A DNA stretch of 38,176 bases from an uncultured Methylococcaceae bacterium. Its GTDB lineage: Bacteria; Pseudomonadota; Gammaproteobacteria; Methylococcales; Methylomonadaceae. The stretch covers positions 1 to 38,176 of the forward strand of contig CAJAQT010000057.1 of assembly GCA_903944165.1 (NCBI GenBank), given 5' to 3'. Below, in pieces: positions 5,268 to 5,966 of the stretch (position 1 is the first letter of the stretch; each line of letters opens with the position of its first letter). The position numbers and the translations under genes were made by a program. The notes under the pieces were generated by a model that was not told where the DNA came from, searched no databases, and was given only the letters and a program-made list of their open reading frames with translations.

Positions 5268-5966
5268 ATGGGAGAATTGTTTGCCGTAGCCATGGGCGGT
5301 GCGTTTGGTGCTGTTATCCGGTTTTTAATATCAAATGGCTTGCATGTATGGTTGGGTCGGGGGTTTCCTTATGGAACCTTGGTGGTCAATGTCGTAGGGT
5401 CTTTTTTATTAGGTTTGCTCAGTCAAGCCTTAAGTCTGCATAAAATGGCGTTCACTATTGAGTATCGCGCGGCTATTTTGGTTGGCTTTATTGGCGCGTT
5501 GACAACATTTTCTACATTTTCTTTAGAGACCTGTTATTTATTTCAGCAAGGTCAAATCAATAAAGCATTCTTAAATATTGCCATAAATCTTCTGTTGTGT
5601 TTATTCGCTGTTTGGCTGGGATTGCACATCAGTAAATTGTTGCTAAGTATTGATAAATGGCAGTTAGATGTCCTTTATCCCTATTCAATTTTTATCATCA
5701 ATGCCATTGGTGCGTTGTTAATTAGCATAATAGGCGCTCTATTACTGCAAAAAGTTCTATTGAACATTGAGCTTCAGTTGTTGTTGATAGTGACGATTAT
5801 CGGTGTTTATCTGCTTTTTTCTGGATTGTATGTGTTGCTTTATTTGTTGGAGCATGGCGTGGCTTTCTCGGTGCAGGAAATGCTTAAGCCGTTCGTAATC
5901 AATACCTGTCTATGTTTATTAGTCATGTGGTGTGGAACGGCTTTGGTGAAACAGTTTTTTTCTTAA
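5268..5966 (+). CDS. crcB: Fused double CrcB/Fluc fluoride channel
   Basis: CrcB (Fluc) exports fluoride passively and normally works as an antiparallel homodimer of about 125-residue, four-helix subunits. This 232-residue protein contains one complete unit (1-124). It has GAFGAVIR (11-18) in TM1, [11 protein letters not shown] (34-44) with pore Asn41, and the TM3 break TFSTFS (80-85). A second, diverged unit runs from about 135 to 232. It repeats TM2 to TM4 with [11 protein letters not shown] (138-148, Asn145), [10 protein letters not shown] (179-188) in place of the Phe box, and a TM4 with Asn212, Trp221 and Gly223. The second unit lacks TM1. The first half is certain; the internal repeat is read by eye. 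The gene lies 26 bases after orn, with no room for a fluoride riboswitch. Confidence 0.85.

Follow-up and report, generated by a model that had tools for sequence, protein, structure and literature searches.

In known bacterial fluoride channels of the CrcB/Fluc family, each chain has 120-130 aa and forms one four-helix unit, as described in PMC3755343. In the window, i.e., the whole stretch of 38,176 nucleotides from an uncultured Methylococcaceae bacterium that was analysed here, a crcB reading frame encodes a considerably longer chain, and the question raised by this locus is what the additional segment is and how it would be arranged relative to a canonical subunit. A sequence-only reading had described it as a second, diverged CrcB unit that is fused directly behind the first and turned over by the loss of its first membrane helix (TM1), and had likened the result to the fused eukaryotic FEX proteins. 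Inverted repeats are thought to arise by duplication and fusion of genes for dual-topology proteins, and where the helix count is even, such a fusion needs one helix more or one helix fewer.

Reading frame, domain assignment and genomic surroundings

The frame translates into 232 aa with no internal stops, and it is composed of a canonical CrcB/Fluc subunit (the N-half) and an in-frame second CrcB copy (the C-half), with 4+3 membrane helices (Table 1). Over the whole protein, Pfam CRCB matches in two stretches with 107.5 bits (cut-off 32.9) and TIGR00494 scores 116.3 (cut-off 80.45). The N-half reaches 132.2 bits against NF010791 (cut-off 129), and for residues 125-232 taken by themselves the CRCB match has E 1.6e-4 and 22.4 bits, i.e., under the Pfam cut-off of 32.9. 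Measured by a single four-helix unit of 120-130 aa, the whole chain falls outside the CrcB/Fluc description and the N-half alone fits it. In TM3, for which the CrcB/Fluc motif is given as GxxGGxTTFSTFxxE (PMC3755343), the N-half carries TTFSTFxxE intact and an Ala in place of the second G of GG; the C-half is without the motif.

Table 1. Coordinates of the fused crcB gene and its parts in the window, and of two fused gene pairs in the records of other loci.
Feature	Position	Strand	Remark
Fused crcB gene	5268..5966	+	232 aa, 7 predicted membrane helices; hydropathy and AF2
N-half (residues 1-124), a CrcB/Fluc subunit of the canonical four-helix type	5268..5639	+	Pfam CRCB 6-119
N-half TM3 motif T79-T80-F81-S82-T83-F84-S85-L86-E87	5502..5528	+	
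Joint (residues 125-137), equivalent to where TM1 ends and the TM1-TM2 loop follows in a second copy	5640..5678	+	
C-half, residues 138-232, TM1-less CrcB copy (TM2', TM3', TM4')	5679..5963	+	CRCB homology
C-half LFSGLY, residues 183-188, matching TFSTFS	5814..5831	+	
Tail-to-tail fused crcB pair, locus L043	1046-1756, 2062-2766	+, -	
Tail-to-tail fused crcB pair, locus L101	476-1177, 1474-2178	+, -	

When the genome of origin was searched with the fused CrcB at E 0.001, its own locus was the only match. The gene is preceded by orn and followed by serS and gltX (names from reading the translations). No fluoride riboswitch was found in the window, where the three gathering-level Rfam matches are all tRNAs, and the region 4500-6200 holds six promoter-like and two terminator-like sites (shuffled sequences: 5.2, sd 2.7, and 1.4, sd 1.3). 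Plasmid records gave 31 matches, none of which reached 80% query coverage. As judged from translations, the left end of the window harbors a gene for a phage-type integrase (602-1669, minus strand) with a small ORF (126-605) beside it, and three adjacent TerD-like genes are located at 22262-24129 (plus strand), followed by genes that resemble a tellurite-type cluster.

Distribution and origin of the fusion

The genomes that carry the fused gene belong to an order which we take to be Methylococcales. In a search across this order, 286 of 311 genomes matched the fused protein, single-domain CrcBs included. The fetched loci yielded 248 closed, X-free proteins (five more matches were left out: two with X, two without the N-half and one open), of which 237 are fused (225-244 aa), with 165 of exactly 235 aa, while the other 11 are 79, 123 (two), 124 (six), 133 and 160 aa long. 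With the window's own included, the order's genomes hold 233 distinct fused sequences, some of them from single-contig genomes (e.g., G019), and a protein of the same length and 91% identity is found in another Methylococcaceae MAG (locus L031). Because the same fusion recurs across these genomes, an assembly join, which the sequence-only reading had wished to see excluded, is ruled out. An artefact of two neighbouring crcB genes, through such a join or through a frameshift, would also have to be reconciled with the uniform length of the fused proteins and with the dN/dS of the C-half of about 0.1 (see below); no evidence in its support was found, and we consider it practically impossible.

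A tree was calculated from 80 N-halves, i.e., 42 from fused proteins (<62% identity), seven single and three shortened CrcBs of the order, and 28 from elsewhere in the class. Here, the 42 fused and three shortened proteins share a common branch (96/81), single CrcBs from two families of the order fall outside this branch, and the shortened proteins of loci L050, L165 and L169 are nested among the fused ones (subgroup support 90/82). The tree, which is based on few columns, leaves 34 of 77 forks open and has an unsettled bootstrap, allows a single origin of the fusion. Behind the N-half of L050 (160 aa) a short tail remains, L169 (123 aa) ends directly after the N-half with no C-half seen in the three frames behind it, and behind the crcB of L165 (133 aa) lies a DUF190-like frame, with no C-half seen. 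These three relatives with a remnant of the C-half or none suggest that the N-half is probably able to work alone.

Outside the order, a search with the C-half in 369 genomes of the class (an even draw from a larger group, with a few of the genomes being from the order) gave matches in 200, the best one outside the order at E 2.4e-10. None of the 42 CrcB loci read there, which comprise 28 and a further 14 that were chosen mainly for long open frames (L293 among the latter), contains a fused crcB; all are single-domain.

Among the loci L001-L169, tblastn detected a gene that presumably belongs to the DUF190 family for 84 of 157 records with a fused crcB and for 7 of the 12 whose crcB is single or shortened. 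Examples are L047 and L165, where it lies directly behind a single and a shortened crcB, respectively; it is absent in the window's locus (L001). In some genomes two fused crcB genes are arranged tail to tail (family f6; Table 1). In genome G016 one crcB is broken (L051, 79 aa, with remnants of the C-half and of the DUF190-like gene in other frames) and a fused copy (L042) is intact.

Joint, helix count and orientation

The 233 sequences were divided by the residue at column 54, a proxy for clades, into a subgroup of 168 that includes the window's protein and another of 65. A profile of the C-halves of the window's subgroup aligned with single CrcBs at 99.6% probability, which together with the two CRCB stretches bears out the proposed second unit. 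The alignment starts at position 19 of the single CrcBs. At the joint, relatives such as L100 read ...GRQIFAADLYPWLGHGFPYG..., the N-half counterpart in L100 itself being ...GIYAWLGRGFPHG..., and some relatives read LYPWLGHGFPY. The start of the profile alignment and the comparison of the joints indicate that TM1 up to its last turn is missing from the C-half, as had been proposed. There is no hydrophobic segment or helix between TM4 and TM5 in the hydropathy plot, and seven membrane helices are found by hydropathy and in both AF2 runs. From this odd helix count it follows that the C-half should be inverted relative to the N-half, in line with the earlier argument that one helix fewer flips the second half.

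Residues of the two halves

Residue numbers below refer to the window's protein and counts to the 233 distinct fused sequences. In Fluc, according to PMC5417652 and PMC8315801, a subunit contributes Thr, Asn, its second Phe, Glu and the TM4 track to one pore, and the other subunit adds its first Phe; our assignments of residues to pores rest on these papers and the alignment rather than on coordinates. In the N-half, G11, G14, R18, P34, T37, N41, G76, T79, T80, F81, S82 and F84 are present in 233/233, N103 in 232 and C111 in 225, and position 87 is Glu in 212 and Asp in 21. The N-half residues assigned to either pore are kept in 232 or 233 sequences, with E87, T83, position 107 and C111 as exceptions. 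T37, N41, S82 and both Phe are likewise invariant in 36 single CrcBs (28 from the class, seven of the order and one on a viral contig). Positions 36, 45, 54, 75, 85, 88, 111 and 116 are invariant in these singles and relaxed in the fused N-halves, where positions 78 and 87 are also more variable; among the relaxed positions, 87 and 111 concern the pore. Judged by this inventory, the N-half is nearly canonical.

The C-half retains the PYxxxxxN-x-x-G pattern (P138, Y139, N145, G148), as noted earlier, and residues 80-85 (TFSTFS) do correspond to 183-188 (LFSGLY). The further claim that the Phe box is lost applies to the majority of relatives; in the window's own protein, however, the first Phe is still present as F184. 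At this place, the counterpart of F81, Leu is found in 143 and Phe in 25 sequences, and the counterpart of F84 (L187) is Leu in 206 and Phe in 10. The place of T37 (141) is occupied by Leu (130), Met (25), Ile (13) and others, with a single Thr, and that of N103 (208) by Val, Ile, Leu or Thr, with a single Asn. The place of E87 (190) holds Ile, Leu, Val or Ala and in no sequence Glu; this assignment depends on the aligner, as hhalign puts a one-residue gap there, and none of the 233 sequences has a Glu at 189-191. The counterparts of S82 (S185; Ser 204, Thr 15), N41 (N145; Asn 168) and position 107 (N212; Asn 208) are retained more widely. In the window's subgroup (n=168), G179 is found in 161, N145 in 164, S185 in 165, N212 in 166, C216 in 149, L187 in 163 and Y188 in 167 sequences; in the other subgroup (n=65) the place of N145 is mostly Gly or Ala, and Ser at 185 and Asn at 212 are found in 39 and 42, respectively. 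As read from the alignment, the C-half no longer has its Thr-Glu-Asn mouth and in most sequences has neither Phe, and in the window's subgroup the pore Asn, the vestibule Ser and the TM4 Asn are kept. The latter three (N145, S185, N212) correspond to Fluc residues that line the pore or vestibule (as presented in PMC8315801 and PMC5417652), and the mouth triad Thr-Glu-Tyr/Asn is described in PMC8315801 as sensitive to change, Glu less so than the other two. Because residue 184 is Phe, the window's N-half-based pore would have the Fluc pore residues if the two halves pair.

Selection, structure models and charge balance

Values of dN/dS were obtained from 205 usable of 233 close pairs, which are non-independent. 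Median values were 0.063 (N-half) and 0.103 (C-half), the highest 0.19 and 0.29, and the comparison of the window's protein with its 91% identical relative gave 0.026 and 0.115, respectively. The C-half is thus under purifying selection and therefore a working part. Mean pairwise identity is 34.8% in the C-half and 64.5% in the N-half (156 sequences). In the window's subgroup, conservation over the three C-half helices taken together correlates in register with that of the 36 single CrcBs (Spearman rho 0.52; ten shifts gave -0.16 to 0.31). For the individual helices, the in-register correlation is clear in TM5 (0.58), while TM6 gives 0.30 in register and higher values at shifts -3 and -5 (0.58 and 0.57), and TM7 0.30 in register vs 0.40 at shift -4. 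In the other subgroup (65 sequences) the in-register rho is 0.09. The pooled in-register conservation suggests that the pore/interface face of Fluc is still in use in the C-halves of the window's subgroup.

Structure prediction, which had been proposed as a check, was run twice, with alignments made from the window's own protein and loci related to it. With a 7-row alignment (pLDDT 66.8, pTM 0.59) the N-half was built, but the pair of halves was not convincing, and a 2-row alignment gave pLDDT 49.0; both models have seven membrane helices, and both are too weak to speak for or against the expected pair of inverted units. Against Fluc chains from crystal structures, residues 1-127 of the model reach Z 15.3-17.2, and convincing matches in Foldseek and VIA-align were to the N-half only. 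In the fold comparison with FEX (9op1), the poor whole-chain model gave Z 8.1 over 126 residues. The top pairs in a mean-field coevolution analysis (233 sequences, Neff 100) are mixed within and between halves and were set aside as evidence.

The K+R bias is 0.07 (sd 0.63) for the N-half, 0.11 (sd 0.57) for single CrcBs and -1.73 (sd 1.51) for the whole chain, where 153/233 are within 2; for loops alone (156 sequences) it is -0.79 (sd 1.44). For comparison, dual-topology proteins display a charge bias of -2 to 1, and the partners of antiparallel hetero-dimers 6 or 7 either way (values from PMC3962082). A control of 24 crude cases of other membrane proteins gave a median of 5 and was set aside, as the helix calls were unstable (two M48 proteins that begin alike gave 0 and 14).

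Possible architectures

The arrangement that we put forward, tentatively and with slightly less than even confidence, is an antiparallel pairing of the two halves within one chain, with one canonical pore and one that is rebuilt or idle. A tandem crcB copy would have lost TM1 and become fused in frame to the end of the first. The three-helix second copy would then be placed upside down, such that one chain holds the antiparallel pair made elsewhere from two chains, and the C-half would pack on the N-half via the usual Fluc interface. The canonical pore would be lined by T37, N41, F84, E87, N103, residue 107 and C111 of the N-half together with F184 and S185 of the C-half, and the other pore by N145, N212 and C216 of the C-half together with F81 and S82 of the N-half, without the Thr-Glu-Asn mouth and the second Phe. 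Export of fluoride would be passive, as it is in other Flucs. Pairing of the C-half with an N-half is preferred mainly because of the conserved pore/interface face of the C-half; its identity as a CrcB copy, the dN/dS of about 0.1 and the absence of a second match in the genome point in the same direction. On the other hand, F81, whose only place would be in the weakened pore, is nevertheless invariant, while its C-half counterpart, in the canonical pore, is mostly Leu. Furthermore, TM1 would be without its TM1' partner, and a residue at the buried TM1-TM1' contact of Fluc does not tolerate alteration without loss of stability (reported in PMC8315801).

The conservation of the N-half is what would be expected if the N-halves of two oppositely oriented chains formed a conventional double-barrelled dimer, in which a poreless C-half stabilises, orients or tunes the channel. 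The invariance of both Phe, T37, N41 and S82, as in the singles, the N-half charge that equals that of the singles, a whole-chain charge near the dual-topology range, and the three shortened relatives that keep the N-half are all consistent with such dimers. The neutral charge and the relatives without a C-half are, conversely, left unexplained by an intramolecular pair with a rebuilt pore. However, N-half dimers offer no reason why the pore Asn, vestibule Ser and TM4 Asn of the C-half are kept in 164-166 of 168 sequences, and one would expect a homologous partner on the same chain to interfere with the pairing of separate chains. The intramolecular pair with a rebuilt pore accounts for both the invariance of F81 and the conserved C-half, and is therefore favoured, although N-half dimers with a spare domain remain a serious, if less probable, competitor. 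A strict FEX-like single barrel, i.e., pairing within the chain with one live pore and the other a drifted fossil without a role, fits the near absence of the mouth triad from the C-half (Thr 1, Glu 0, Asn 1 of 233), at places where changes damage Fluc or FEX (as given in PMC8315801 and PMC5417652), and the retention of F184 in the window's protein. The earlier suggestion of an inactive pore agrees with this loss and with that of, usually, both Phe, but F81 of the N-half is free of drift. Moreover, the replacements in the C-half are themselves conserved (L187, Y188), unlike in free drift, and we regard the single barrel as improbable.

A wider proposal builds on the intramolecular pair: a single-chain inverted-repeat Fluc would be found across most of the order, its second pore rebuilt (L-S-G-L-Y, pore Asn, TM4 Asn) for another job, and the relatives would represent living stages. 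We consider this rather doubtful as a whole. If true, the rebuilt pore might serve in gating, take a different anion or keep the first pore open, and the living stages would be the single gene, the fusion, decay of the second half and a return to a single unit.

Comparison with known systems

In sequence, model match and key pore residues the N-half is like the bacterial Fluc/CrcB homodimers (Fluc-Bpe, Fluc-Ec2; PF02537), the difference being the extra three-helix unit behind their one four-helix unit of 120-130 aa per chain. In the accounts of PMC3755343 and PMC5417652, bacteria have single or paired Fluc genes, and fused Flucs are either eukaryotic FEX proteins with a linker helix or engineered; among the literature matches listed, which cover the literature in part, there was no natural bacterial CrcB fusion. 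Two related Fluc domains meant to pair in an antiparallel manner are also found in Fluc-La1/La2 and in Laf-TM, but the former are separate genes and the latter is a laboratory fusion via a glycophorin helix (PMC3755343), in contrast to the natural fusion found here. In the fused two-domain DUF606 proteins, as described in PMC3962082, subunits are likewise joined into one antiparallel chain; these proteins are a different family, and their likeness to the fused CrcB is one of description.

In the eukaryotic FEX proteins, too, a chain comprises two CrcB domains, and the pore positions of one domain are degraded. There, a linker helix joins two four-helix domains, whereas here the linker helix is absent and TM1 is missing from the second domain. 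According to PMC5417652 and PMC8315801, degradation in FEX mostly affects the N-terminal domain, and here it affects the C-terminal one. In yeast Fex1p the live pore keeps both Phe and the dead pore has both changed (PMC5417652), i.e., one pore is conserved in both domains and the other has drifted in both. In the fused CrcBs the N-half has both Phe and the C-half mostly neither, and the first-Phe pattern of FEX does not fit. The bacterial route towards an inverted-repeat Fluc would be the opposite of that of FEX, with a helix lost rather than a linker helix gained, and because relatives keep an apparent pre-fusion state as well as apparent reversals, its evolutionary steps are testable within one gene family.
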